From Phoronis ovalis (taxonomy: Eukaryota > Phoronida > Phoronidae): DNA of 20,555 bases. The notes beneath the pieces are model-generated. The model was given only the letters and a program-made list of their open reading frames with translations. It ran no database searches and was not told the origin of the DNA. Of this stretch, positions 1,345-20,010 are shown one piece after another; the first letter of the stretch is position 1; each line of letters starts with the position of its first letter. The position numbers and the translations under genes were made by a program. The DNA is taken from the NCBI GenBank assembly GCA_028565635.1, contig JAOXYB010113269.1, forward strand, positions 1 through 20,555. The letters are read 5' to 3'.

Positions 1345-1547
1345 TCAGTCAGAACTAGTAACCTGCTTCACAATCATAATGAAATGTTCAGAGGATTCTA
1401 TCAGACTGCTTGGTTTCAACAGTCCAAATCCTCGCTCAACGCTGTGACGTTGTTCAGTAGACATCCGCTTTAGAAGGCGTTTCATGGTCTCAGTGTTTGT
1501 CAGCTGCTTTCTTAATGTTTTACCAAAACCTGGTTGCTTCTCCTCGC
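1345..1547 (-). CDS. Terminal exon: basic C-terminal tail of the subtilase protein
   Basis: The acceptor is actatcttgtag|GC and entry is phase 1, matching the subtilase donor (junction codon GGC, Gly). It encodes 66 residues to a TGA stop at 1345-1347. The start reads GEEKQPGFGKTLRKQL and continues KRLLKRMS, then HSVERGFGLLK. Lys and Arg dominate and it is probably helical. It may contain the last helix of the subtilase fold, but I do not recognise a separate domain. It is the only well-formed phase-1 acceptor with an open frame downstream of the protease exon, which is why I place it in this gene. An additional exon in the 2-kb intron is not excluded. Confidence 0.72.
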
Positions 1548-4500
1548 CTACAAGATAGTGTACAAAAAGAGATGTATATGTGAGTATACTTAGTAACATG
1601 ATTTGTCACCCATGGCCTGCCAGTGACAGCGGTATGGCCATATAATAATTCAAAAAATACGTTACCGACAGAAGTCGCATTGACAGTGCCATATATTAGA
1701 TAGTAAAATGTAGTAAAAAAAAAAGCAAAATAAGATTCACATCTTATTAAATAAAAGGACTTGAAAGAAGAATATTATATTACTTGCCTTCATTCATTTT
1801 TTTATATATCTTAAGACTACGTATGTTTGGTAATCATAAGGTTGAAATTCCAGAGAGGTCACTATCTTTATTTTTTAAAAATGTTTAATCGGTTTTAACA
1901 TGGAATCTGCTATGGCCGACAGTACCAATGTCAAGATATCTCTGAAATAAACTTGGCTGCAACTGACCATAGTGGAGTTGATCTAAATCATATTTGAACT
2001 GTATTTTGGTTTCTATCACTATATGTATCAATTTTCAAGTTAATATCATAACGGGTAAAACAGCTTAACTGAGCAAAATTGACGAGGTTAGGATGGATGT
2101 TTAACCTACTTTTTAAGGTAATTCTTAAAACCTATGCGTCAATCCATGGCCTTTACTATCAAATCGTCTTTGTATGAAGACAAAGAGGTATAGCCTGTGA
2201 AAAACACTGCCAGCTGACCATATTGACATGATTGGAAATGATCCAGTCAAAATTACATTTGACTTGTATTTTGCCCTAACTATACCAAATATGAAGTTGA
2301 TCTGATAAAAAAACTGAAGCTGTTTTAACTGAAAATCAACCTTAACCTGTATTTTGTCTTCTATTTACAATCTAAATTAAAGCGATCTCTCTATGTGTCA
2401 GAGTTTTCAATATCCAGATTAGAGCAGTTTTGACGACTGTGAATTTTTCCAATCAGCAGTTGATCAAACTTCGTTCAAGGTCATTCTAAAATACCACCTA
2501 GTATATTACATATGCCTTGCGCCGCCTTTCATAAATACATGTGCGAATTCTCCAGGCATCGCTTCGTCTGCATGAGAAGACACCTTTTGAAGCACCATCT
2601 GGAGAACAAACATGGCAGGCAGGAAAAATCTAGGTCAACATTGTACATTACCTGTACTTTGCCTTTTACTTGCCCTATACTAAATATGGAGCTGATTGGA
2701 TACAGACTGATGAAGCTTGTATTGCGACGTTGTCATCTCGAAAACAAACATGGTCACCAGTCAGCCATTTTGCAAGCGATCCAAGTCAAAATATATCTAA
2801 CCTGTAATTTGACCTGTATTTACCCTGCGAATAGAAAACGCCGAAGCTGCATTTACAAGACATAGAAAGTGCTATGCACAAGGGAAAATGTCGAAGATTT
2901 ATATTGGCATCTGACCCACCTTTCAAGGTGATTGTAAAATTCCACCTAGCCTAATACCCTCATTCACCCATGGCCTTCATGAATTATAGTTGACCCTATT
3001 TTGACTTGCACTTACTCATTGCCGAATATGAAGCTGATCAGAAAAAAATTAAGCTGTTATCGCCAGACAAAAGAAGTGTTACCTTTATCGATGCAAATAG
3101 GGATTGCTTTTATTTGCTGCTAAAACTAGTTTTAGGTCACCATTTTATAAAGTTTAGTATTAAAAAAATACTATTAAACTTCGCTTAGTTACAACTATTG
3201 AATATTTATGGCCAATAGTATACAAAGTATAGTCCTGCTAAGTTACTGGCTTACCTTCCACAATTGGTGGCGAGGCAACCCTGAACCAGAGATATGGACA
3301 CACTATTATCGCACATTTTAGAAAAGTGCATTATTAAATTTTTCAGAAATGATCTGACATTTTGCAAAGGTTGCTAAAGTTCTATAGGAACACATGTTCT
3401 GATTGTCTTCTTCCAGCTGGCACTCGCGCTGGTTAACGTCACAATATAGCGGTAGCGACTTATGTATCCTTCTATGACCCACCTTTTGATGTCTAACATC
3501 CGCCTAACCATATACTTCATGTAATAAAGTGAAATAAAATACTGCCTAAATTGTCAGCAGTATAGTTACGCCATGACTTACCTAATATCTCTGTTATAGC
3601 CAGTAACTGTGCAGTAAGCCCTGCTACAAATGGTGCAGCAAATGAGGTTCCGCTTCTTAGTACAACTCCTTCTTGGTTAACAGGAGGACGTCTTGAGTCG
3701 CATACAGGTATCTGTTCTCCCGGACCAAGGAAATCTAGCTGTTGTCCTATCGCACTAAACTTGGATCTGTTTCCATGCTCGTCATGGCTTCCTATGCAAA
3801 TACAGCAACCAAACGCAGCCGGGTGTAATATGGTGTCATTATCAAGCATGCCGTCATTAGAAGGAGCACAAATTACTATACGTTTACCGCATACATCATT
3901 TAAGGCATCACGTAGCTGCTTACGCTCCGCATTATTAGCAAACTGGACAGCTAATGATATGTTCACTATATCAATGTAACCTTGACTATCCATGGCATTT
4001 AAATCAATCAATGCTTGGGTAAGATTAGAAGCAGATACTGCGCCATTCTTATCAGCAACCTTACTGAAGACAAGTTTTGCAAATGGCGCCAGTCCTCTGT
4101 AGCTGACCCCATTATATGTATAATACTCATCGCCAGCAATTATAGCTGCAACTCCAGTGCCATGATTCGCAATATCAACATTCCAAGACTCTGTGGGGTC
4201 ATTCACGTAATCTTTCTCAGCAATACCACAAGGATTTACCAGAGATTCGAAAGCAGCATGTCCAGTCCACATTCCAGAGTCTAACACAGCTACATAAACG
4301 TTTCCTTTTGGTAGGGTTAACAGTCCAAATCTTGGATCACTGAGTATCTTATGGACATCACTGTACTGATGAACGTATGTATTCATTAATTTCCCACTCG
4401 GAACTGAAATATAAAAGTTAACTGAATCTGATAATTTGCCCACTTTACATCTCTTTAGTGAGTTACTATTTTGTGTATATCAAAAGTTCTATCAATATAG

Positions 4501-7500
4501 CTGGAAACAGCATCTGAAACCAAAAAAAAAGAGTAGGTCCCTGGCATATATATATATATATATACTCACAGAAAAGGTGAATATAAATGTTGCCATGCAA
4601 CAAGATTTCCAGCAATATTGATCGAAAGGTGCCGCCGAATCTGAATTTGAATCTGGATCTGTGAATAAAAAAATAGCTTGGTCTCATAATGTTTGTAAAA
4701 ATCAGTGATATTCGCAGATTCCACGAAGAAGTATTTTAGAAAAATTAATGAAAACAAAAAAAACGTTATTTTTTTCAAATAATTGCAATTTAAAGTATTT
4801 TAATTTTGGTTTTCTTTCGAATCTGAATCTGGAACTGGCTTTACGTTAAAATCTGAATCTGAAGCTAAAGCTGGAGCTCACTTAACGTACGCGTTTAGGT
4901 ACAATATATCACACATCTACGTACTGCTTGTGTACACAGTCCTATATAACTGTATGTTAGATGGCATAGCGGGTACAGAAACAAGAAAGGTATTTATAAA
5001 AAGACTGGCACTCGGGGTCAAATAGATATTCCAGGATTACCTTAAACCCTATGAACATAATACATGCACGCTTAAACGCAAAGTATGAAGAACTGCATTC
5101 TAAAAAATTATATCTGGGAAACATTGATTTATTTTTTGAAATTCCGTGTTAATTAGCCACCCAAAATGATGTCAGAAATATCGGTTGTGACGGCACATTG
5201 AGCAGCGAAATGGCGGGCAGCTCAAAGAAAATAAAATTGCCGTTTCATGAATCACAAGTAATAACTTTCTGCAATCGCAGGTCACGAAAATAATACGACC
5301 CTTCCCCGCATCAGCAATAACAACTATTCATAAAACAGGTTGTACACAGCCTATCGCAACCTACACTCATAATTGAAGATAACTTATATTCAGTCATTCA
5401 GTCATTATATTCGATGAATCAATAAATCTCACAGCACGATAATAAAATATGACCTTTTCACACCTGTAGGAAACATGTGTGTTCCCTTTCCCGCAAAATA
5501 CATGCAGGTAGGCTGAATGGTCACTAACTAGAATGGGAACTTGTGCTCGTGTATGTATCGTGGGGTATATATAACAATTCGAGTTGCATTAATGATCCTT
5601 AAGGAATTTGGGATTCTGCGATTCCTTATCGATTCCTTAACAGACTAAGCTAATGACCTAAATAACACAATATTAATATTAGAATCATGTAGACTCAATA
5701 ATAAAAATGACTAAACAAACTTATAAATACATAAAATGACACAATTATATCAAAATTTAGAGGTACAAAACTTATAATATTTAGTCTCTTTTCAAAGTTA
5801 TGAAAAATGATCTAAAATATATAAAAGACCTAAAATTACATAAAACATAAACACTGACATAAAATTGTATAAGAATAGAACATCTAATTTACTGTACCAT
5901 ATTTAATGAATGCCTACTCTGATACTGTAAAGCAAAGTGATTTGGCATAAGGTCACAAATGATGTAACCGCAGTGGTGGCGCAAAGACTGCACGTGCTGG
6001 AAGTAGTCCGTCAACCTTAAATTGATGATGATTTTTCTTTTTCCTTGGCGCTGGCTTTTTTGTTTGCTTCTGTTTAAAAAGTAAATCACTGTACAAGAGA
6101 TTGAAACTTATATTAGCTTTTTAAAGTAAAATAAACCGAAATTTGAGTAGGATTATTTGAGCTAGGGCAAAGCTCTGAATTTTGTCAGTTGTTAGGTTGC
6201 AATTCCCTGGGGGTAGTCTACATAGTGGAATCGCAAAAATGTAGATCGTCATGCCTGCACGAAAAATTAACTGGGCGTTGTATACATAACAATCTTCAGT
6301 TTTTAACAGGTCATTTTCTTCGCGCAATGTTTGGGACATTTTTATTATAATTTAAATTACATGAATTTATTATAGAAGCGGATGGGAAATCAATTGTGTC
6401 CTTATACCATTTATCTTGGTTATTTATTAGTTATATTTCGTTTTATTTTTTTAGTTATTTTTATTATTGAGTCTACACGATTCTCATATTAATATTATGT
6501 AATTTAGGTCATTTTTCTTAATTTTGAATAAAGATTATTTAATTTTTGTATCTCTAAATTCTTGTTTAAATTGTCGTTTTATATATTTTTAGGCCATTTT
6601 TGAATCTCGATATAAGAGCACAGCCGAATAACTTGCTAGCGTTTTGGGCATTATGAATATGTCATTATTATTTTATTCATTTATAGTGTTTTTATGAACT
6701 TTCTCATGTCAGCTAGTTAAATTTCGTAGACTCGTTCACTTTCCATTAAAGCGTAATTTGAAAGCATACATAAATTATGGAGTGTGAAAATGTTCAACAT
6801 GACACTCATGTTATTGAAGAATTGCAGTATTATTTTATTATCAATAATTAGGAAAGCAAACCTTGTTTTCCAGGAAGTTAAATAGTTTTTATCGCTACGA
6901 TTCAAGTCCAGTCAGAAAAATGACATAACTAGCCTAGCTACATTTTGTGGCCTATTTCTTAATTTGAGTGCTTTTGTTATTGCCTTTATACGGATTCAGA
7001 TTTCAGTTAATTAGATAACAAATCTCCATAATATTTTGTTTTGCCGCATTTCTTCCATGCAACGAGTTCCCAATAATTCATGGGATATTAACAGTATTTC
7101 AAAGATGCAGCCATTTCTGGAAACATGATATATCAAGAACTATAACCTTTGAATTTAACATGTAACACTTGCAATTGAATTCAGTTTTCGATTGACATTG
7201 AAGTATTGCTGGATAATATGTATAGTCCTTTTGGGCGTCAAAATCAAGGCCTCACAAAATGCATTCTGGTATTTAACCAAATGTTTCAAGATATATTACA
7301 AATAAACTTGTCAAATAAAATGGATATTGTTTATAATTAAATTTGATTTGTAAAATGTTGTCTTTCTATGCGGCTTTTTCTGTAAGTAATGAGAACTATA
7401 AAACTATAAAAAAAAACAATTTAAAATCGTTCATGTTATTTCGTGTCACCTTGAACATAACGAAATATAAGTGTAGATAAAATTAGCAATACCTTTCTCT

Positions 7501-10500
7501 TTACCGGCAGTTGCACTGCTGTATCCTTTGTCCTCACTTTTTCTAGCAGATGCTACAAACAAAATAAACTTGCCAAAAAAATTGATATTGTTTATAATTA
7601 AACTTGATTTGTCACAGTAAAATTGTGTCTTTCTATGTGGCTTTCTATGTAATTAATGAGAACTATAAAACTATACAAAAAACAATTTAAAATCGTTCAT
7701 GTTATTTCGTGTCACCTTGTACATAACGAAACATAAGTGTAGATAAAATTAGCAATACCTTTCTCTTTACCGGCAGTTGCACTGCTGATTCCTTTGTCCT
7801 CACTCTTTATAGCAGATACTACAAACAAAATAAATAAAGCTGTGAATAGGACGACACAGTGATGCATTTAAATTGATAAACAGTTTCATGTTAAGATTGG
7901 AAAAGAATACACACAGGCGGATTTTCTTGTGCTTTATTAGTATCATCATGTTTCTAGTCACATGATATACACTATTTATGCCTAAAACGTAGATTTATAA
8001 TTATAGATGTACCTTAGTTTTTTCTATTGTTTTGTATTTATTTTAGTCCAGATGCAGTGTTTCAATAAACAAGAAAATCAAAAATGTTTAAGAGTACAAA
8101 ATAAAGCAGTTTCATGAATATCATTTTTAAGAAATAGATGAACATGGAGTTTTGAACGTCCATGTGTGCGACTAGCTCATTTGTTCAGTTTTCATGCGCA
8201 ACATTAATAGAAAGAATGAGTATTCAGGTCCCAAATGTACTCGTTGTTGATCAGTTATAGATTGTAGTACATTAATACAGCGATATAATAATCCACCTGG
8301 TCCATGTAGCGTTACACAATTGTATCGTACATCCAATGCTAAGGGTTATTCCATTATATCGTATGTAGCATATGCTAGACCGCTAACCGCTTTTATCGGA
8401 CTAATAATTTTGTTTCATGCTTCTAGGATTAGATATAGGTTTCAAATATTTAGTGTTAAAAATATATTTCGCGTTTATTGTTCTCCTGAGTACCAGTTAG
8501 CGTGATAGTTAGTGTTAATAGCAATGCGGGTACAGGTATAGTTTGTGTAGTTTGTGTACCGAATTGCAAGAGAAAATTGAAATTTTGTTTAACTAAACAA
8601 ACAATGAATGTTGATAAAAACACTTCCAGCTTGTGAACATGGAATCACAAAATACATACAAATCATTATAATAATGCAATAAAAATATACAATCACTTCT
8701 ATTCATAACTCATACAAGTAACGGGGCTATATACAAAGTAGATCACCACAAAGATATATGAGTTGTGAAATCTACAACTTCACTGAATCGATGCTATTAT
8801 CGATAAAGTTTAATATAATCAAATGTAATCACAACATTTCTTTTTTAAGTAAACTGATTCGTTCAGAGATCCCGGGTCATGGAAAACATAATTAATATAA
8901 TCCATATGATTGCTGACTAGAAATTGAATGCCGGGATGGTCCTACATTTTACAGTGTTACATAGATTCTCAAAATATGCTCGGCCCAAATTTGCAATATA
9001 ATGATGATATTAATTTAATAAGTGGTAACTTTGTTTAATATTGGACGCTATCATTCAACAGGCACGAACTTTTACACTAATTATCACGTTAACTATAGTT
9101 TTGTCCGAGAATTATTTTCTGAGATACTCGTTAAAAATCCCATATTATAGAGGGACGCTAACAACAGCTGTCACCGCGCTGTAACTTTTAACTCATAAAC
9201 ATAGAGATATACTTTTGAAGAGCTGTGAAATGTTCTATTTCCTTGGAATAGATAAAGTTTAGTGTAATCACAACAGTTTTTATATTACTGAAATTAAGCG
9301 CCGGGATTGTTTATAGTGTTATATTCCAGATTATGGACGCTAACTATAGCTGTGCCGTCATAACGAGTTAGTTAATTAATTTTTAAGAAAAAATATTATC
9401 CGTATATGTTAGTACATTATCAAAGTAAAAACGAAATATTTTTTATCAAAATTTGAGTGGATTATATCCAGACCTAGAAGGTAACCCAGTTTTGTGTCTA
9501 TTTTAGATAATTCCATCTCGTGGTCTGTGGTTACAGTCCACAAAAAAGTTAATTGCACGAAAAATCGGGAATAGGCATGATTATCTTTATTTGTGACTGA
9601 ATAGAGTTAGTCTATTTACTAGAAGGCAAAATGTTACTATTGAGGCGGATGGGAAAATCAATTGTATCCTTACGCCAGTGTATGACCAGACATGATTTAG
9701 GTTTTATTAGTTTTGTAACAATAAAAATAAAAAATATTTTTTATAGTCCGAGATGGTCGATGCTCGTATCTAGTCTAGTGTGGTCTTTAACATTTTGGTA
9801 AATATTTTAATGTAAATGTATGTTGCACATGGACAGTTTTAATTGAATTTTATAATTCTGTCAATTACAGTGTGACACAAATAACGTGAAAAATTTTGTT
9901 TCAAAAATAATCTACTTCGTCTTTAAAAATGGTATGATCAGAATAGTAGTTTTTGTGAACGTCTGCAATTCGTCGACTCAGGAAATAGACATACTTAAGG
10001 CTAAGCTAGACTCCCTTGTTGTTTCAATACTATTTAGTGCAAAATAATTTTACTTTTACATACAATTTCAACATTCAGGCTATGTCATGGTGGTATTTTC
10101 AGACTCGTGTGTGAAATGCATGAAATTTATTCACGTTCTCTGATACCTCATAAAAATCATAAGGTACATTCCAAAAATTAATCCTGCCGATCTAATAATG
10201 ACATTTTAAAGAAGCAAATGATACTATCATTATTCTGTTATGGTCAAATTGCTAATACCGAGAATACTCTCTGAGTTATCAATTAATGTTTAAAAAAAGT
10301 TTGTTTTTTCCTAAATAAAACTAAATTAATTATATAACCAAAATCCATGGTGCAATTTAAAAAAGATTCATAAAAATTATTGGAGTTAGTTTCGTTTACT
10401 TGCTAAAAACTTAGTACAGATTTAGATCTACTGGGTTACCCTGTAGGATGTCCCTTTTTGTTCGTAAATGGTGTCTTTAAACGTCAGTTGAGTTTCATAC

Positions 10501-13500
10501 ATTTTACGCACTAGACTAGTTTGAAAACACCGATATGACATAGTATGAATATTTTAATGCGGAATTCTCATGAATTTTTATTTATACAGGAATGAGGGTC
10601 TAGCTTAGCCTTAAATTACGGAGTGTGAAAATATGATAAGCATGTTTTTTGAAAATTCCAATATAACTTTTATTATCAACAATTACGAAAAAAAATCTTG
10701 TTTTCCATGGCCAGGAATTAGTTTTCTATTTAACAGTCCAGTCAAACAAGAAAAATTACATAATTAGACTAGGCACGTTTTGTGGCCTATTTTGAATTCT
10801 ACTGTTACAGACTATATTACAATATGGACACGGAATTCAGTTATTTAGAAAACGTAACAAAAAGTATTAAAATTAAATTGAAAACACGTAACGGCGTCTG
10901 CACTTTCAAGAAATTAACTTTACAAAAAGTATACCCGGAAAGAGTATCTCTTGCTAATACAGCAACCGTAATTTTGTTCAAGATTCCTTCAATACAACGA
11001 ACTGCATCGAATGTTAACACTTGTTCAAAGATGGAGCCAGTTCTGGAAAACATGATATATCGAGATAATGTATCGAACGTGTGTGTGTTTTAATTCTGTG
11101 TTTGATAGTCAATGCCGCATAAGTGTATGCTAGTATCCAAACGTTCAACAATTGTTACAAATAAACTCGCCAAATAAATTAGACACGGGATTCAATTACA
11201 TGTTCAATTCAAAATCGTTCACGATATTTTGTGTCACATTGTACATTAACGAGAAGAGGTAATACAGTTTAAAATACCTTTTTGTTTACCGGCAGTTGCA
11301 CTGCTGTCTCCTTTGTCCTCACTGCTTATGGTGGTTTCTGCAAGTAAAATGAGAATAAATTGACTTTCCTTAACATATATATTGATAATTGGTTTCATGT
11401 TAAAATCAGAAAAACACCCTCTGAGGTATCATATGTTTCTTGATATACACTGTGTGTCTAAAAGGTAGATTTACAATTTTACACAAACAGTATTTTAACC
11501 ATATTTGCTGTTATTATTCGATTCGATATTATTCTTCGATTTCATTGTTTTGGACTGCCATGTTACATTATATATTCATCTTCCCCCTTAAATGATTCAG
11601 TTGTCGAAGTTCACGATTGGCATTAACGCAAGGAGCAAAGACATTTAAAGTAGAAAATATATATTTTAGAATGTATTATGACAAGTAATGTTGCATGTAA
11701 AAGACAAATTGGTGGATAACTCGTGCAGAATGATCTCAAATATATTTAGCATGTGCTAATCTAGGTTGGTCCAGATGATATCAGGATCAACACTCTATGT
11801 CATACCTGGTGGTAGGTTAAGTTCTTTCTCACACTCTACAATACGTTTCACAATTGTATCTAGTTTAACTTGTTCGAACACAAGCTTAAGTATTCTATAG
11901 CCACCATTCCCCCAGCTGACAGCATGTCCTCTTGATTCCAGCTTATTAACTAACTCGCGAAAGTCAGTTACTTGTGCTAATTCAGCTGGTCTAAAAATGT
12001 TAACTGTTAATATCAAAGGTACAGTATCACAAGTTTTAAAAAGATCGTTTCACTTTTTTATTCAAATTTTAATCTCTTGATCTCCCCGATAACGGTGTAA
12101 TGGTGCAAACATTAAGCACTGAATTCTGAAATAATGTTTCGGTTTCTCTAAAAATGAGAAATTCCCTGTTAAATATACAAGTTTGATAGGTATGGGGGAA
12201 CAGATATGCAAAATGAACACTACTAGAAATAGCAGTTTCACTCACAAGAGGGTACTCCCTCGAATTCTGATCAACAATTGCATATTTTGTTATCAGATTG
12301 ATCTAATACGTTCCATTGTAATATTATATTCCCATAGTTAACTCAAAACAACATATTTGTTGTTTAAGATTTTCATATTAAAAGTATACCTAATGTCTTT
12401 AGTATTGTTAAAGTCTACGACTGGTATCAATGGAATATAGATTTTTTTTATTTTCATTATATTTTACATTTGTACCGTATGTATTTTTTTCTTTATTTGT
12501 GTACATTTGACTTAAGAAACATATTTAAAGTTCCTACCCAGTTACAATACACTATTTCGGCTCCCTGGTGTATTAACTTTCAGATTTTGGTGTGTTGGGA
12601 AGCTGACAACTGTACATGTGAGTGTCAGAGGAAGATGAGAAGTGTTTGGAATATGTTTGATACAGCAAGATCTGGGGACATTTTATTAGGCCCTTTTTGA
12701 CTGCTTACATGGGTGTTGTGTGATGGTGATGTTTACATATATTTTGAAAAAACAAGACTGCATGTGCATGATATGAAGTCCGGTGAATTTTGAATTTAAA
12801 AACTGAGATCAATGTATGGCAGTAATTCTGCATTGTTTTGAATGGGGGAAAAATAGTGTACTATAGCCATCCACAATTAATTCAACCGATTCATTTGCGG
12901 CCATATATCCATACATTATTTTCACTTTGTTGTTCTTTAGTGTTTTACTTCTCTCGATACCATATTAATTACTTACTGCTGATATTATCAATTTAATTTC
13001 AATGTTTCTAACACAATATGCAACTGTATAGTCAGACCTATTAAATCAGCAGCGTAGACTCGATTTTATACCGAAATTCCTGTTACTCGAACCGTCATTT
13101 CCGCGTACCCGCGCAAATTGCCATGAACTGGGACAAATTGCCAAAGACTCAAACCTGCTGTTCTAGTTCCTGGCAACTGTGCTAGTTCGCGGATGACGAT
13201 TCTGCAGGAACTTTCACTAGCCTGTCCGCAGGCTAAGGAAGGACTAATTATATAAGGATTTAATATATTGATAGGTGACAATTTTGGTATCAAACTATCA
13301 GCATTTAAATATGACTAAATATAAGTTACACAGTTGAAAAAGTATAATTAATCATCACTTTAGGCAATTTGAGTAAAAAAATGTTCAATGATGTAAAACT
13401 TCATTATTCAGACTGAGTCCAGTCTAGATCTTTTACGGACATATCCATGAAAAAACTTACTTCAAATAGTTTGATTTTCTACAGATGGACTTGATATTCA

Positions 13501-16500
13501 CCAGTTCATCCGAGTCAAAAGAGTTCTTTATCTCCAATAACAAACTCAGGTGAATCTCATCTTCTGTTCTGCTGTTTTCGGTGTCAGAAGATACTACAAA
13601 TAAAAAACAGGATAACAGATGGTTACCTGCATGTATAAATAGAGAAGTAGTTCCGTGTTAAGATCATGTGAAAACATTAAAAACATGGATTCCCCAATGG
13701 GTGTACATTATCAGTAAGCGCAAGCACGTGTTCCAGGGCACATGACAGCTATGCCATCCATGAAACACATATTTATAACCATGACAAAAGGTATGTTTTA
13801 ACAACAGTTTCAGATATTTTATTTCGTAAAAACATATTTACAGTTACTAGCCAATTATAAATTGCAATATTCTTCAGTCTCAGTGATTTCGGCTGCACCT
13901 TGTGTTTATTTACTGTCATATTATCGTAACTAGCGGATGAGCTAATCTAGGCTAGTCCTGATTCATTCTGATAAATCCATCCGTTAGTCTTACGTACCTT
14001 CTAAACTAACGTCTGGGCTTAACCATAGTCGGTTTTCGTTAAATTTAATTTAACAAGAGCGAAATAATTACGTCATTGATCTTTTGCCAAGCGAGATAAA
14101 CCTTTATCTCTGCGTGATCCATTGTCGCCTACCACGTGTATTCTATCACTGTGACTCATTCTGAATAGGTATCGCCGTGGAGCTTGCTTTTTGCTTAGCG
14201 GACTATAGATACACTCTGGCAGGACAGAATGTGTAATCGACCCCCTACCCGCTTATTCCGCTGTTATACCTATTATTGTAAGCTGCAATTTGATCGGTGA
14301 TAAGATGTTCTTGACACTTTATATAGAAATAAAGAGAGTACAGTTCTTTTGTTTTTCGAGATAATAAACAAAAATTGACCATGATTAAACCCAGACGTTA
14401 GTTGAGACGGTACAGAACACTAACTGATGGATTTATTCAGACTGGTCCAGATGATGCTATCAGGATTAAAAGTTTACCTGCTGGTACTTTCTTGGCTATT
14501 TCATCGGCAGCCTTACGCAGTCTTGCAGTTTTGAACAAATATTTTAGTTTGCCATAACCGCTATTGCAGCCGACTTCAAATCCTCTTAATTCAAGTTTGT
14601 CAACTAAACCGTTAAAGTCTTTTACTTTGTGTAAGTCAGCTGGTCTAAAAAATGTTAACTGATACTATCAAAAGGTACTTTATCACAAGCAATCAAATGT
14701 TCGTTTTCATTCTGTTTCAAACAGTACAGTATCTTTGAGAGCAAGGATCTGCCACTACTTCATTAGTCACTTGCACGCAGCACTCGAAACATTGAATTTT
14801 TACATACTTTAACTTTGGTCATAGCTAATACATGTAGTTTCAAATTTGCATTTTAACTTGCAAACTTAAGAATGGAGCTGCTAGTGTACCGCAGGAGTAT
14901 TAATCATGCATATCTATGTTCTACACCTTGTAGTCTGTATCTGCATAGCGTGGTGTATTATATAATCATATTTACTAAAAAAAAAACTTACGACAAATAT
15001 GCTTTACATAGATACTTAATGTCTTCGAAATGGTCTGGTTCCAATAATTGGCTTATTGAAAATATTAATCCGGCATGGATCTCTTCCTTTGTCTGCATCA
15101 TGAATATTTGTTTCAACCACTAAACACAGTTTACTGGAAAATGCCACGTTTCCTATAAAATACTTTCGTGCTTTAAACATAGTGAATACATTAAATATAT
15201 ACGGATGTATTTTTATTAGCCATTCTAGTCTTCAGATACATATACAGGGGCAATAACGGGGGCACTTGGTCAATGTATGGTACTGATGGCTAAAAACATA
15301 CCCCGTTGTCAGAAACGATGGCTAAAAGCATCACCCTTTAGTAACACTCATCATGCCAAAAAAACTCTTTATAACCAACCACTAAGTCTGTAAAGCTGTT
15401 GCAGAATTTCTAGAAATGTTTACCGTAAATACAATGTACTAATCAGTAGCTAGTACTGCATATACCTTTTTCTTTGGTATGTCATTGTGCACTTTGTTGT
15501 ACATCACTGTCATGTAACTTATTAAGTATTGCTTTTTATTAACCAATGTGACCACATTTTGCAAGTCAGGTTAACATTTCATAAGCATTTTGATCTAATC
15601 ATAAAATCTTTCCTTAATTTTGTGATTATAAACGCCATGAACTAACACATAGAAATGAAACTAACTTTTCCTTATTTCCTCTACTACGTTAAATATCCTT
15701 ATTTACCTGCATGAAACACGTCAAACAGAATACTGTTTATAGCTTTTGCACAGTATATCAGTATGTTGACATAAGCATGTTGTATTTTAAAACAAACATA
15801 CATGTGCGTAGTGTCAATTGGACAATGTGTTAGTCAAATGTAAAAGCTCTATATTGCTATAAAGTTAAATTAAGATAATAATTTCAAATTTATATCAAGC
15901 TAAACCTTTTTATGGTTGTAACTGAGATGCAGGCATTTTACCTAAAAGGTATTATTTTGAAGTTGAGTTTCAGAAAAAATATTTTCCAAACCACCACCAT
16001 GTGTATCTGAGTAATCAATTAAAATGAAAACCTTAAAAGCTACTACATGAATGAGTTCTTCATTCGTAGTGTCCTTATACCCCTGATGCATAAAATAAAT
16101 GATACTTCCTGAAACTCTTATAGTTCCTTAAGATTTGCACCCAATTGTTTTCGTACTTTGACAAACATGTACATTTCATGATAATAATACAAAGTAACAA
16201 TACAAAGTAACACTACGCAATAACTAAACATGGCTTCACCGTCCAACTTTTAGAGACCTGAAGTTTCACGCGATATTTATAGTTATTCCCAGAAATAATG
16301 TTCTCAATTCTCAGTAGTATTTTGTAAAATATTTATTTGTGTAGAATGCACTGAATGATCCCATATAGGGCTCGACCTGTACCTGCTATATCCCATGGTT
16401 ATCTATATACATCGTTCCCCCCAGAACACCAGCCACTCTCAAGACACCCTCTTCTGCAATACTGCTTTATTTCACCTGTCTGTGTTAAACGAAAATTGTA

Positions 16501-16954
16501 TTCAGCTAGCCTAAATGTAATTTATAAGGACTGTATTGTAAAATATACATTATCCAGATTACATCACTGTGATTAGCCTATGAAATTTCGCCGAATCAAC
16601 AGATTTCAAGACATATCTGTCTTATGATATTTGATAAAACTGTAAGCATGTCTGTCTTTTCATCTTTTACATATTTACTACATACTAATTTAGTGTGATA
16701 ATTTAGGCTGGATCGATATAAGAATCACTTAAAAGTACACTAATATGTCAACTACTATTTCCGGGATAATGTCAATGATCCTGTCAAGGTGCTATATATA
16801 CGTTCAAATATGATATTATCAGGAACTGCCAAATGCTAATTTAATATAACTTACAGTTTTCGTGTTTTGTCATATTCCTCTAATTCTGCTGTACACGTCT
16901 CTAATCTCGTCACAAGTTTCCAATTCTTTCGTAAGAGCACTTTCGATATCCAAT
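1345..16954 (-). CDS. Spliced gene model: tandem DED-like domains + linker repeats + subtilisin-like protease (5' incomplete)
   Basis: Nine exons join with consistent phases into 595 complete codons plus stop. Approximate residue layout, counted from the first complete visible codon: DED-like A 1-88, DED-like B 95-194, three 20-residue linker units 195-254, subtilase about 255-530, basic tail to 595. Catalytic residues of the assembled protein fall at about Asp296, His335, oxyanion Asn437 and Ser508. Death-fold domains normally act in the cytosol by homotypic assembly, so the inferred role is a scaffold-activated intracellular protease in cell death or immune signalling. That role is inference; the exon phases and catalytic motifs are seen directly. 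No start codon, signal peptide or I9-type propeptide was found. The N-terminus probably lies upstream, possibly outside the window. The gene could also be a recently decaying paralogue, but all exons from the second onward are open and have good splice sites. Confidence 0.7.
1850..3170 (+). repeat. Degenerate tandem-like repeat array in the last intron
   Basis: At least three diverged units carry the shared phrase AATATGAAG(T/C)TGATC-GA, at about 2287, 2683 and 3025. Each is preceded by TTTGACTTG or TGCCCTA-type sequence and followed by an AAACTGAAGCTGTT-type segment. The TTCAAGGT-ATT-TAAAATxCCACCTAG block near 2475-2505 recurs at 2920-2950. The AACAAACATGG block at about 2606 recurs at 2741. 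Spacing is roughly 340-400 bp and irregular. This is intronic on the minus strand. The 2512-2865 plus-strand open frame lies inside the array and is not a gene. The family is unidentified; it could be an eroded non-autonomous transposon or satellite-like intronic repeat. Confidence 0.55.
3582..4403 (-). CDS. Exon encoding the whole subtilisin-like (S8) catalytic domain
   Basis: The acceptor is cttttatatttcag|TT and the donor is ATTAG|gtaagt. Length is 822 nt with both ends phase 1. Motifs in order: VAVLDSGMW with catalytic Asp at 4279-4281; NHGTGVAAIIAG with catalytic His at 4162-4164; CAPSNDG with oxyanion Asn near 3856-3858; RSGTSFAAPFVAG with nucleophile Ser at 3643-3645. Spacing Asp-His 39 and His-Ser 173 residues fits active S8 peptidases. 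About 40 residues precede the Asp region (YVHQYSDVHKILSDPRFG), with no recognisable inhibitory propeptide. The domain is Cys-containing (CCICIG) and shows no secretion signal in this exon. The protein is predicted to cut peptide bonds; substrates are unknown. Confidence 0.92.
4546..4564. repeat. (TA)n microsatellite
   Basis: About nine uninterrupted TA dinucleotides immediately upstream (in gene sense) of the subtilase exon, within the intron. No function is implied. Confidence 0.9.
4630..4870. repeat. GAATCT-rich low-complexity patches
   Basis: The hexamer GAATCT with variants recurs at 4637-4661 and again at 4817-4864 (plus strand). It produces the Gln-Ile runs of spurious minus-strand open frames. 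It is intronic simple-sequence DNA. Confidence 0.6.
4871..5600. other. Intron segment, no supported gene
   Basis: Part of the 3.1-kb intron between the last linker exon and the subtilase exon. One short plus-strand frame starts with a good start context at 5211 (MAGSSKKIKLPFHESQ) and could end at a gtaata donor, but no partner exon is visible. I see nothing else. Confidence 0.35.
5640..6605. mobile_element. Large inverted-repeat structure (MITE-like or foldback element)
   Basis: The sequence AATGACCTAAATAACACAAT at 5652 continues for about 70 bp. It reappears as its reverse complement at 6447-6513 with roughly 85-90 percent identity by eye, sharing GTAGACTCAATAATAAAAAT. A second, more diverged pair follows: 5734-5850 against the reverse complement of about 6505-6600, sharing AATTTAGAGxTACAAAA. 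The arms therefore contain repeated subunits. No clean target-site duplication was found, so exact ends are uncertain. Between the arms lies the RING relic. It sits in the intron upstream of the subtilase exon. Confidence 0.55.
6121..6339 (-). pseudogene. Degenerate IAP-type C-terminal RING finger relic
   Basis: The minus-strand frame begins SQTLREENDLLKTEDCYVY, close to the LxEEN-x-LK-x-C lead-in that precedes the RING in mollusc inhibitor-of-apoptosis proteins. The second Cys of the first CxxC pair is Tyr here. Shifting one frame after the AQLIF segment gives CRHDDLHFCDSTM, which matches the CGH...C..C region of the RING before a stop. So the zinc ligands are partly lost and the frame is broken. 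It is located within the inverted-repeat structure, suggesting capture by a mobile element or insertion next to one. RING identity is inferred from the pattern; alignment to IAP proteins would settle it. Confidence 0.4.
7493..7552 (-). CDS. 60-nt linker exon, copy 1
   Basis: The acceptor is tttgtttgtag|CA and the donor is GAAAG|gtattg; both ends are phase 1. The peptide is ASARKSEDKGYSSATAGKEK. Only about 206 bp of intron separates it from copy 2. It joins the subtilase exon with a Val codon (G|TT). Being symmetric, it could be skipped in alternative transcripts to shorten the spacer by 20 residues. Confidence 0.72.
7759..7818 (-). CDS. 60-nt linker exon, copy 2
   Basis: The acceptor is tttgtttgtag|TA and the donor is GAAAG|gtattg; both ends are phase 1. 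The peptide is VSAIKSEDKGISSATAGKEK. It lies in the upstream half (in gene sense) of a tandem 260-270 bp duplication that also copied the flanking intron. The 3' two thirds is nucleotide-identical to copy 1. Disordered spacer between the DED-like region and the protease; function beyond that is unknown. Confidence 0.72.
7991..9640. other. Intron segment with a diverged direct repeat
   Basis: No exon supported. The stretch 8757-8960 is echoed at about 9207-9320: both contain GTGAAAT-, GATAAAGTTTA-T-TAATC, TCACAACA-TT and GCCGGGAT-GT followed by AGTGTTA. GGACGCTA recurs at 9043, 9153 and 9338. The plus-strand open frame at 8320-8505 has no splice context and is probably chance. Confidence 0.4.
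9643..9710. repeat. Short block shared with 6376-6430
   Basis: GGCGGATGGGAAAATCAATT followed by GTATCCTTACGCC matches GCGGATGGGAAATCAATT and GTGTCCTTATACC at about 6378. It is either an outlying part of the intron duplication or a fragment of the same mobile element. Confidence 0.55.
10610..11490. repeat. Duplicated intron block carrying linker copy 3
   Basis: Paralogue of 6770-7990, with the same order of landmarks around a linker exon. The stretch 10800-11030 matches poorly to the other copy and is open on both strands; this may be a replaced or inserted segment. Confidence 0.7.
11278..11337 (-). CDS. 60-nt linker exon, copy 3 (most diverged)
   Basis: The acceptor is ttacttgcag|AA and the donor is AAAAAG|gtattt. 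Length is exactly 60 nt and both ends are phase 1, so the exon can be gained or skipped without changing frame. The peptide is ETTISSEDKGDSSATAGKQK after completing the junction codon. It is hydrophilic, rich in Ser, Thr, Lys and Glu, and predicted to be disordered. It shares the SEDKG-SSATAGK core with the copies at 7759-7818 and 7493-7552. It is the first linker after DED-like domain B. Confidence 0.7.
11806..11990 (-). CDS. Exon: second half of DED-like domain B
   Basis: The acceptor is aacatttttag|A and the donor is CCAG|gtatga. The exon enters at phase 2, has 61 codons and leaves at phase 1. Key stretches are PAELAQVTDFRELVNKL, ESRGHAV and YRILKLVFEQVKLDTIVKRI. The last matches the DED helix 5-6 pattern, ending in a K-L-D version of the RxDL charge motif that defines the family. 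With the preceding exon it gives a domain of about 90 residues, the usual DED size. It is followed by a short ECEKELNLPP connector into the linker exons. CARD or another death-fold class is the main alternative; the RxDL-like site favours DED. Confidence 0.78.
12000..13460. other. Intron between the two halves of DED-like domain B
   Basis: The first 90 bp (11991-12085) are homologous to the flank at 14645-14740. Two less AT-rich patches, about 12560-12710 and 13070-13235, have short open frames (12470-12700 plus; 13066-13293 minus) without recognisable protein similarity or consistent splice sites. I annotate neither as a gene. Confidence 0.4.
13461..13593 (-). CDS. Exon: linker plus first half of DED-like domain B
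   Basis: The acceptor is tttatttgtag|TA and the donor is TTTGAA|gtaagt, a perfect consensus. The exon enters at phase 1, has 43 codons and leaves at phase 2. It opens with an acidic, serine-rich linker (SSDTENSRTEDE) and then IHLSLLLEIKNSF and DSDELVNIKSICRK. That pattern of helix 1 (LLLxI), acidic turn, and helix 2 (LxxIKxIC) is typical of death effector domains. The acceptor region and first codons (TATCT) resemble those of the three 60-nt linker exons, so the linkers may derive from the start of this exon. The join to the next exon makes a Lys codon (AA|A). Confidence 0.75.
13957..14440. mobile_element. Inverted-repeat insertion (MITE-like), about 480 bp
   Basis: The arm at 13969-14040 (ATAAATCCATCCGTTAGT ... 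ACTAACGTCTGGGCTTAACC) matches the reverse complement of 14370-14440 (ATAAATCCATCAGTTAGT ... ACTAACGTCTGGGTTTAATC) over about 75 bp. The paralogous intron at 11755-11790 reads GCTAATCTAGGTTGGTCCAG without the insert. Here the same flank is split into GCTAATCTAGGCTAGTCC before and GGTCCAGATGATGCTATCAG after. The overlap suggests an eroded target duplication near GG-T-GTCC. The interior of about 330 bp is non-coding. Confidence 0.7.
14478..14644 (-). CDS. Exon: second half of DED-like domain A
   Basis: The acceptor is cattttttag|A and the donor is GCAG|gtaaac. The exon enters at phase 2, has 55 codons and leaves at phase 1. The peptide runs PADLHKVKDFNGLVDKL, then ELRGFEV, then GYGKLKYLFKTARLRKAADEI. 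This fits helices 4-6 of a death effector domain: a hydrophobic LVxxL helix, a xRG turn, then a LxxLF helix followed by a basic-hydrophobic helix. It is a clear paralogue of the exon at 11806-11990, including about 100 bp of flanking intron. Where DEDs carry the conserved RxDL motif this copy reads RLRK, so the acidic residue is missing. That suggests a different assembly surface from unit B (inference). Confidence 0.72.
14645..16660. other. Intron between the halves of DED-like domain A
   Basis: The flank next to the exon is shared with the intron after 11990. Small direct repeats occur: GATGGCTAAAA twice at 15285-15330 and AATACAAAGTAAC twice at 16186-16212. Short plus-strand frames at 14872-15123 and 16355-16576 have no supporting context. 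I see no gene. Confidence 0.4.
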
Positions 16955-17505
16955 CTATACTACAAATGGGTACAAACTGATACAAATGTTATAAAGTAAT
17001 AATACCTCATATAAGTAAACATGACCTGACCCCGTTTTACACATTTGCTTTTGTAATCAATATATTTTGGTTTGAATCAACATATTTTAATTTAGCCTAC
17101 TCTCGCCGCTGTAATTAAAAAAATTAACTCATTAATTACATCTGCCTTCTACACAAAATAAAAAGTAAGAATTGTGACTGGATCAAATCAGATCTAGAGG
17201 AAAAATGGCGAATGTATTCCTGTTATAGGAAATAAGTAAATCGACAAGCTAGCACACGTCATTTTGTGACTACAATATAATTTTGATGATAATGAATTAT
17301 CAGCATTACAAACTAGAGATGCAACGTTGTCGAAAGTGAGACTTTTATTACAAAAAAGTTATAACTATGCAAATATTATAGGCTTTTACATGTCTTTAGC
17401 TGTTACCGAAGTACGTAATTTGCACAGTTCTCGCCATCACAAACATGGTATGATAAGTGAGACGAAAAATGTGCTAAACAATATTACTGCCAATCTTGTG
17501 AATGA
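16665..17505. repeat. Segmental duplication, copy 1 (intact insertion site)
   Basis: Matches about 18170-18206 plus 19186-20010. Shared landmarks: GTGATAATTTA; TTCACTTAAAAGTA-ACTAATATGT (reads ATCACTT- here); CGTTCAAATATGA; CAGGAACTGC; TTAATATAACTTACAGTTT; TTTTGTAATCAAT; CTAGAGATGCA; GTTGTCGAAAGTGAGAC; ATGATAAGTGAGAC. It contains the candidate first DED exon. The plus-strand frame at 17327-17536 is disrupted in the other copy and is not a gene. Confidence 0.8.
16855..16954 (-). CDS. Candidate exon: first half of DED-like domain A
   Basis: The acceptor reads ...tagtatag before AT-TGG and the donor is AAACT|gtaagt. The 100-nt exon is open for 32 codons in the only frame that enters at phase 1 and leaves at phase 2, which is what the downstream exon needs. 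The peptide includes KLVTRLETCTAEL, resembling helix 2-3 of the other DED-like unit (ELVNIKSICRK), and ends just before the shared PA(D/E)L junction. A second acceptor 5 nt further upstream (exon start 16959) aligns better with the acceptors of the other exons, but at phase 1 it gives an immediate stop. Similarity to a DED first half is weak, and this is the least certain exon of the chain. It lies inside a segmental duplication whose second copy is broken. Confidence 0.45.
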
Positions 17506-18206: not shown

Positions 18207-19176
18207 GGGCAACGTTAATCAGCGGACTGAACGGACTGAACGGACTGAACGGACTGGCGGAGTAACAAGCGAACTAACAAAGTTAAATAATCACTGATAA
18301 TCGTTAAATAATCGTTCCGCGTAATCATATTACTGCTCAAACTGTGAAAAAGGCGGTAAACACTTTAAAAACTGAAAATTCATTAATTTTTCGTTAATCG
18401 CATTATATATAAAAATACATTTCTGCAGCGGTTTCTCAGATATCAAGAATTGGTCCTCGTGTCTAAAGGAGTGCTTAATCCTATTACTTAAGTTGTCATT
18501 GGTGAAGTCTTTTGTATCGCGGATTTATTTGCGAAGTAAACTGTTCGATTCGGGGAAATCCCAACTAATAACTTAAAACCGGAACTTGAACTCAATTATT
18601 GACGAGCTATCTGACCTGTTCTTCTCTATCACACGCACTGAAGCCTCGATAAGCTGACAACTTGAAAGGAAAGCAACGCTACAGATGTAAAATAAACAAA
18701 AACACTTTAACACATCATTTAAACGTACCTTCTTTTTCGTCAACATTTGGGAAAGCCTTTGACTTATCCGGTCACGTGATAGTCATGTTGTCTAAAATGA
18801 TATGGTTTCTGCCGCGCATTTTACCCGAAAAAGTATGCAATTAGATGCGGGAAATGTTCATAAGATCTACTTAAAGTTAACAAATGCGACAAACGTTTTG
18901 CCTGAAGTTACTGGATATAATTTTTTGGTACGACTTCTCTTGAGATTGAGTATAAAGTACACTTTTCAACGGGTGCGGCAACATTGCTAGGTGAGAGTAA
19001 TCGATAAAGATCCTTCATATTTTATTAAATTATATAATCTCTGCGTCAATTTTTTTGTAATAAAAATATGTATGAAGGCAGATCATGTAATAATGTAGTT
19101 AAATTAAATAACTAAATTCGTTTTACTCCGTTAGTCCGTTATTTTAGTCCGTTCAGTCCGTTGATTAACAGTGCCC
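18207..19176. mobile_element. 970-bp inverted-repeat DNA transposon, probably non-autonomous
   Basis: Ends are GGGCA...TGCCC. The left arm at about 18207-18283 reads GGGCAACGTTAATCAGCGG, then repeats of CGGACTGAA, then CGGAGTAACAAGCGAA. The right arm (reverse complement of about 19105-19176) reads GGGCACTGTTAATCAACGG, then CGGACTGAACGGACT, then CGGAGTAAAACGAA. It is flanked by perfect 9-bp target duplications, and the paralogous segment at 16.7 kb has the uninterrupted site. A 9-bp duplication with long arms is typical of Mutator-like elements; Merlin (8-9 bp) is an alternative. The interior has only short frames (18662-18844, 18802-18990) and no transposase I can recognise. It was inserted after the segmental duplication. 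Confidence 0.88.
18222..18256 (+). repeat. Tandem 9-bp repeat in the left arm
   Basis: About four copies of CGGACTGAA within the terminal inverted repeat. The right arm has fewer, interrupted copies. Confidence 0.9.
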
Positions 19177-19185
19177 GATAATTTA
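19177..19185. repeat. Target-site duplication, right copy
   Basis: GATAATTTA, identical to 18198-18206. Confidence 0.9.
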
Positions 19186-20010
19186 AGCTAGTTCGGCATA
19201 CGATTCACTTAAAAGTATACTAATATGTTAAATGCCATTTTCGGGATAATTCAAATGAACCTCTGTCAAGGTGATACATGCGTTCAAATATGAGATCCTC
19301 AGGAACTGCTTAATATTAAATGATATCTTAAGACACTTAATATAACTTACAGTTTCTGTATTTTGTGGTACGGTGTATCCCTCTAATTCACGTACACGTA
19401 GACACGTCTCTTTTGTAATCTAATATGGCGACAAGCACTTTTGATATCTGATCTATTATTAACATACTTTGTAAAGCAAAAATAAGTCATATAAGCAAAT
19501 ATTACCTGACCTCGCTGTACACATTTTCTTTTGTAATCAATGTGCATGCTTTGAATCAACATAATTTAACTTATCCTATTCCTGCTGCTGTTAAGAAATA
19601 ATTTGAAAAAAAATTAACTAACTAACTACAGCTGTATTTTGTACCAAACTATAAGGTAAGAATTGAGACTCTATCGATTTACATCTAGATCAATAATGAC
19701 GAATATACTCCTGTAACAAAAATAAGTCACATTGACCAGAACATTTGTAGTTCTCGTTAGGAAACATCGTTTCGTGACAACATTTTTGATGATATTGAAT
19801 GTCATCATTGTCAAGCTAGAGATGCAGTGTTGTCGAAAGTGAGACAGTTTTTATAACAAAAAATCCGACGTTAGTTAAATCTATGCATACATAATTGTCC
19901 ATGCGTTTTTATAACCTGCATAATAATCTTATTATATTTGCCCGGTTCTCAGTCAGAAACATGATAAGTGAGACATAAAATATGCTAAATATTCATGAAA
20001 ATTGTGCTAT
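19186..20010. repeat. Segmental duplication, copy 2
   Basis: Paralogue of about 16706-17505, collinear with it through the broken exon and up to the ATGATAAGTGAGAC landmark near 19960. Moderate divergence with indels. Confidence 0.8.
19351..19452 (-). pseudogene. Broken duplicate of the candidate first DED exon
   Basis: Acceptor (taataatag) and donor (GAAACT|gtaagt) positions match those of 16855-16954. The frame entered at phase 1 hits TGA after about 22 codons, and the total length (102 nt) would leave at phase 1 rather than phase 2. A shifted frame recovers ETC...RELEGY, similar to ETCTAELEEY of the intact copy. So an indel has broken it. No second-half DED exon lies between it and the intact copy. 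Confidence 0.5.

Follow-up and report, generated by a model that had tools for sequence, protein, structure and literature searches.

A tandem-DED gene of Phoronis ovalis with a subtilase in the place of the caspase

Gene structure and domain content

The stretch of DNA analysed here, referred to as the window, comprises 20,555 nucleotides of a contig of the phoronid Phoronis ovalis (JAOXYB010113269.1; assembly GCA_028565635.1) and carries on its minus strand a gene predicted to encode two death effector domains (DEDs), a linker and a subtilisin-like protease (subtilase) domain of the Peptidase_S8 family. We built the gene model from the genomic sequence alone, using splice sites, phases and the comparison with another gene, located on contig C3407. 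That contig belongs to the same assembly as the window (77 Mb in 4805 contigs), and this assembly was the one searched throughout. An initial annotation had proposed nine coding exons with compatible phases in one frame. All nine were present, and the eight introns between them all have GT/AG ends, with phases 2-1-2-1-1-1-1-1. The coding part runs from 15101 to 1345; exon 1 opens with a start codon, exon 9 closes with a stop codon, and the joined exons form a stop-free frame of 1800 nucleotides, encoding 599 amino acids if translation begins at the first ATG or 598 if it begins at the second, adjacent one, rather than the 595 codons originally counted. The span first assigned to the gene, 1345..16954, thus held for the coding part, while the stretch up to 16954 contains at most a 5′ non-coding exon (16855..16954, minus strand), weakly indicated by a GTAAGT donor seen by eye directly after 16855 and with its upper limit taken from the initial annotation.

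Each DED is spread over two exons, all on the minus strand like the remainder of the gene. The start codon(s) and the first half of DED1 lie in exon 1 (14992..15101), which ends at a GTAAGT donor, and the second half lies in exon 2 (14478..14644), which follows a TTTTAG acceptor and is entered in phase 2 and left in phase 1. DED2 is divided between exon 3 (13461..13593; first half) and exon 4 (11806..11990; second half), and all four exons have counterparts in exons 1 to 4 of the C3407 gene. Between DEDs and protease, three 60-nucleotide exons—exon 5 (11278..11337), exon 6 (7759..7818) and exon 7 (7493..7552)—each encode one 20-residue repeat and sit in frame with phase 1-1; the C3407 gene, too, has two 60-nucleotide linker exons. 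The first repeat is identical to either of the others at 49 of 60 positions, while exons 6 and 7 share 55 of 60 and lie inside a tandem duplication (289 identities across a 338-base span). The linker is repetitive and probably flexible. Exon 8 (3582..4403) encodes the Peptidase_S8 catalytic domain with an intact catalytic set, consisting of the triad D300, H339 and S512 and the oxyanion residue N441 (protein numbering). Exon 9 (1345..1547) supplies the C-terminal end of the S8 match and the stop codon, and a similar tail occurs at C1292, C4368, C1693, C366 and C3407 and partly at C2665. The limits of exons 2 and 8 agree exactly with those given initially (14644-14478 and 4403-3582).

The initial annotation had suggested a profile search of the spliced protein for death-fold and S8 domains. 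Run with Pfam up to an E-value of 10, such a search listed only DED and Peptidase_S8. The suspected death fold is supported as a DED (PF01335, in two stretches; E 1.1e-10, 42.0 bits against a curated cut-off of 35.9), and the S8 domain is complete, as proposed, matching positions 3-286 of the 288-position profile (E 4.2e-28, 98.9 bits). No I9 pro-region or P-domain was matched, nor is there a hydrophobic N-terminus (top 19-residue hydropathy of 0.44 in the first 60 residues, no dedicated signal-peptide program being used), which makes a cytosolic enzyme likely. The same Pfam search revealed neither NACHT nor NB-ARC with repeats, and no Peptidase_C14 domain with a His/Cys pair; with only S8 and DED found, the protein is therefore not a caspase.

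The subtilase domain

The catalytic D, H, N and S are invariant in all eight S8 relatives aligned, which come from 8 of the 18 contigs of the assembly with S8 matches. A subtilisin fold is predicted for exon 8: AlphaFold2, run on the exon together with 41 homologues (41 of 132 proteins from the collection searches, plus the window exon), returned a model with a pLDDT of 83.5 and a pTM of 0.86. Compared with the PDB, this model gave 265 matches at E ≤ 0.001, the best 50 of which (TM 0.65-0.71 relative to query length) were subtilisins, their engineered variants or close relatives, and the nearest solved chains among the matches listed were bacterial subtilisins. NCBIfam models gave only matches far under their cut-offs.

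NG86 estimates of dN/dS among the S8 exons of the window, C1292 and C4368 came to 0.140/0.691, 0.191/0.771 and 0.151/0.764. With dS roughly four to five times dN, the S8 exon is, judged from these rates, under purifying selection. A pseudogene is ruled out by a model free of stops and frame breaks together with dN well under dS.

Searched with the S8 family profile, a protein collection yielded 4398 matches; of the best 120, the top one was an amphioxus ‘major intracellular serine protease-like’ protein (P0013, 366 amino acids; E 8e-46), the closest named match among the matches listed, followed by twelve unnamed ones. PF00082 is the only domain listed for this S8 relative, and no DED is among its entries; the search itself covers proteins of about 150-478 amino acids, so that 600-residue relatives fall outside its range. 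In the closest relatives of the eight-sequence alignment, the segment preceding the catalytic Asp is similar. Bacterial intracellular subtilisins are restrained by an N-terminal extension, and by analogy the segment ahead of the Asp may restrain the window subtilase.

A local family of death effector domains

As the initial annotation had claimed for its two N-terminal units, residues 1-92 and 93-198 are homologous, with a local alignment score of 147 as compared to a maximum of 45 in 500 shuffles (mean 24.8, standard deviation 4.3). A search of the assembly with DED2 returned 55 exon matches at E ≤ 10 and 45 at E ≤ 0.001 (three of the 45 being the window's own); the total of 39 contigs reaches E 10 and includes C1315 and C4304, whose only matches are above 0.001. 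We took the best 12 of the 55 matches as loci. Thirteen units with both halves visible—two each from the window, C3407 and C366, and seven from the ten loci L038-L047 outside the window, of which L039, L044 and L045 were excluded as only their second half was clear—aligned well, and 12 of these 13 matched PF01335 at E ≤ 0.01.

In a PDB search with the 13-unit profile, DED1ch came top (E 0.0012), with an aligned stretch resembling that of FADD. Further DED chains (FADD, caspase-8, c-FLIP and PEA-15) followed at E 0.067-0.96 amid unrelated chains, and of the 30 chains reaching E ≤ 1, 21 carried the name of a DED protein; the spliced DED part alone returned nothing useful from the PDB, so the profile did better. 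Where the helix 2 hydrophobic patch of FADD (F25, L28) reads KYLC, DED1 has KYLC and DED2 KSIC. By these comparisons, the window DEDs are members of a large, diverged local DED family. The protein is, by profile, a DED protein, though one without the RxDL motif, and an S8 peptidase by sequence and predicted-fold features.

A second gene of the same plan

The gene on C3407 has the exon order DED1a, DED1b, DED2a, DED2b, two 60-nucleotide linker exons, S8 and tail, with identical phases at every junction shared with the window gene. Its protein of 562 amino acids is 35% identical to the window protein over 590 columns (E 2e-80) and matches Peptidase_S8 with 69.2 bits. The same order and phases at such divergence would not be expected from a chance assembly of exons, which this gene rules out, and it gives, at the level of gene structure, the strongest support that exons 1-9 form one gene. 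The initially proposed layout of tandem DED, spacer and S8, with the S8 domain standing in the caspase's place, is well supported by the profiles and by the C3407 gene, suggesting that the DED-subtilase combination is real in an animal genome.

Peptidase_S8 gave 23 matches on the 18 contigs mentioned above. Besides the window, DED exons were found on two of the other 17 (C3407 and C366), as compared to an expectation of 0.134 (P 0.0077). On C366, two DED units lie upstream of S8 on one strand; by eye, each unit seemingly has its own start, with COR-like pieces between them, and we therefore did not count C366 as a third DED-DED-S8 gene.

Against the protein collection—mostly predicted from genomes and metagenomes, so that a missing match there does not show absence elsewhere—the full window protein had 12 matches among 7997 scored candidates, in S8 only, and the N-terminal DED-plus-S8 part had none among 7995 at E ≤ 0.001. 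The initial annotation knew of no described animal protein with this architecture, and none turned up in the accessible portion of the open-licence literature, outside which most subscription papers and preprints lie.

When read through, the intron after exon 4 encodes Gly-Met-Thr followed by a stop codon in the window gene and the C3407 gene alike (window 11795-11806; L048 5295-5306). Intron retention would yield a DED-only protein resembling short FLIP, and such a form could exist.

Proposed function and alternative explanations

We hold, with moderate confidence, that the window carries a single gene for a cytosolic protease with two N-terminal DEDs, a linker and a C-terminal subtilase, and that DED assembly governs this protease in innate immunity or cell death. 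Exon structure, domains, catalytic set, the lack of secretory and classical pro-region features, selection on the S8 exon and the second gene are read from the DNA; activation and substrates are inferred, by analogy to tandem-DED proteases and to fungal and bacterial receptor-protease systems. In the proposed course of events, an upstream sensor would fire and the window DEDs would co-assemble with other proteins of the expanded DED family. This assembly would gather or unmask the subtilase domains, perhaps through autoproteolysis in the linker or in the segment directly ahead of the first catalytic Asp, and the active protease would then cleave targets in the cytosol, as part of cell death or of innate immune signalling. 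An unrelated peptidase would in this way take the role of an apical caspase. Like the initial annotation, we infer scaffold activation and a role in cell death or immunity.

Several points weigh against this reading. Subtilisins function as monomers and, unlike caspases, are not known to require dimerisation, so the switch might be something other than induced proximity. Activity, activation and targets are putative, being read from genes. With PF01335, the single units of the window score 24.9 and 27.0 bits, both under the cut-off, and the DED match of the C3407 protein (33.5 bits) is slightly under it as well. The whole DED model had five matches in the assembly, on four contigs without S8, and missed the window too because each DED here is interrupted by an intron. 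All 13 DED units of the genome lack the RxDL motif (described as E/D-RxDL in the accessible part of PMC4558505), which makes them a diverged DED subfamily that cannot be presumed to bind FADD-like partners. No DED exons were found upstream of the S8 exon in its two closest paralogues, C1292 and C4368, within 9 kb and 5 kb, respectively. A gasdermin search of the assembly gave no match, yet its controls were likewise silent and no inference can be drawn.

Since subtilisins need no dimer, the DEDs may merely target a competent enzyme, an alternative that we consider somewhat unlikely while giving it real weight. The subtilase would be active once folded, and the DEDs would only deliver it to DED partners, which would be cut or degraded to shape or end signalling. 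The monomeric nature of subtilisins, the missing I9 match and the many DED exons of the genome as potential partners (the 45 matches at E ≤ 0.001, the window's three included) fit such a scenario, but a free cytosolic subtilase would probably be toxic, and the segment before the catalytic Asp could act as a restraint.

That the window instead holds a DED-only adaptor (exons 1-4) beside a separate subtilase (exons 8-9) appears very improbable. The introns from exon 5 to exon 8 are long, the stop shortly after exon 4 in both genes makes a DED-only form possible, and no DED was found upstream in C1292 or C4368; however, the whole order, phases and linker exons are repeated in C3407, the linker exons are in frame with phase 1-1, and the presence of DEDs on two of 17 non-window S8 contigs, C366 being ambiguous, exceeds expectation. 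Quite improbable, too, is a c-FLIP-like regulator that keeps its protease domain for shape rather than catalysis: tandem-DED decoys such as c-FLIP are known (PMC4558505, accessible part), but the retention of D, H, N and S in all eight aligned relatives and a dN far under dS tell against it. Finally, an ordinary secreted or digestive subtilase whose N-terminal similarity to DEDs is due to chance seems barely credible, for while a standard S8 fold with bacterial subtilisins as nearest solved chains would suit it, the protein has no hydrophobic N-terminus and no I9 or P-domain match, once joined it passes the DED cut-off, and C3407 carries another gene of this kind.

Relation to known systems

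Animal proteases headed by a tandem DED are known from the caspases. Procaspase-8 and -10 and the window protein alike combine two N-terminal DEDs with a C-terminal endopeptidase, which belongs to family C14 in the former and to S8 (serine, subtilisin fold) in the latter; moreover, the local DED family lacks RxDL, and in the window gene each DED is divided between two exons. The layout is caspase-8-like and the protein is not a caspase, yet by analogy it would work like an apical DED protease. Homologues of caspase-8 with two DEDs, caspase-8A and caspase-8B, occur in bivalves (accessible parts of PMC4558505 and PMC7836458).

What the window protein has in common with Podospora HET-Q2 and the S8-containing fungal NLRs is a subtilisin-like protease, which in the fungi is wired to cell-death machinery and here is thought of as such by analogy. 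According to the accessible parts of the respective papers, HET-Q2 is subtilisin-like and likely cleaves the fungal gasdermin HET-Q1 (PMC12881547), and S8 domains occur in fungal NLRs (PMC4986451). In the window protein, by contrast, the partner is a tandem DED and NLR parts are absent. With bacterial conflict systems containing death-like or EAD domains, it shares the fusion of a peptidase to a small adaptor domain. The accessible parts of PMC8195603 and PMC7159879 describe such domains together with trypsin- and caspase-like peptidases, and an S8 peptidase is mentioned once, in NucA-trypsin systems, in the latter. The bacterial systems differ in that their domains are bacterial and their peptidases, in these parts, mostly trypsin and caspase, and the word ‘subtilisin’ does not occur in the accessible part of the 2021 paper PMC8195603.

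If the preferred reading—a subtilase governed by DED assembly—is true, apical signalling through death folds can employ a peptidase class unrelated to caspases, as happens in fungi and bacteria. This significance rests on a DED-headed subtilase with a catalytic exon constrained by purifying selection and on the strongly diverged C3407 gene, which follows the same plan. It makes caspase-independent, scaffold-driven proteolysis in animals a directly testable question and points to one possible role of the expanded DED family in this genome. On a broader scale, it is possible, and we propose it tentatively, that some marine invertebrates possess a caspase-independent death or immune pathway, a counterpart of the fungal and bacterial receptor-protease systems, in which phase-1 exon shuffling would have joined one cytosolic subtilase family to various modules acting as sensors or adaptors (tandem DED, LRR-Roc-COR and perhaps TPR) and DED filaments would provide the platform for activation.

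Other modules in the genome and flanking features

The S8 exon of C1292 (L004 9060-9899), the closest S8 paralogue with 76-77% protein identity to the window exon, lies 1.4 kb downstream of a 2174-residue frame on the same strand (L004 1128-7649) that contains LRR, Roc (45.4 bits), COR-B (36.0 bits) and COR-A (25.0 bits, under the cut-off); the phase-1 donor of this frame could join the phase-1 S8 acceptor. TPR-like frames lie upstream of distant S8 relatives, again on the same strand, on C1704 (L064; 53.3 bits, clear) and C1502 (L063; 22.4 bits, under the cut-off). LRR-Roc-COR-S8 and TPR-S8 fusions are candidates only. Within the assembly, S8 and Roc co-occur on a single contig, which is not significant (P 0.15), and S8 shares no contig with Death or C14.

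DED and C14 likewise share one contig without significance (P 0.19). On this contig, C1867 (L060, L061), a caspase-like C14 single frame (36.3 bits) with YYSGH and DCCHAG stretches lies approximately 8.5 kb downstream of DED exons on the same strand, possibly forming a gene that joins DEDs to what we take to be a metacaspase-like domain. Death and Roc share 12 contigs as compared to 0.253 expected (P 1.5e-18), namely C4521, C1727, C1831, C3035, C261, C4344, C3258, C3846, C4798, C1255, C2924 and C2375; by domain content, these are an expanded Death-ROCO set. Death-fold, GTPase and peptidase modules are expanded and have perhaps also been shuffled in this genome.

The initial annotation had spoken of other molluscs. 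The COX1 frame of the assembly requires TGA to be translated as an amino acid (six TGA codons within the match), and the neighbouring frames, identified by eye, follow the order nad3-nad2-cox1-cox2, which suits a lophotrochozoan. Serine at the 10 AGA/AGG codons of COX1 follows from the use of translation table 5 and carries no independent weight.

Upstream of the window gene, 16692-17500 and 19170-20006 form a duplication with 617 identical bases in local alignment, which adjoins the possible 5′ exon. The stretch 18207-19176 is an inverted repeat with 34-nucleotide arms that are 88% complementary and separated by 902 nucleotides, and from its sequence looks like a small transposon-like element.

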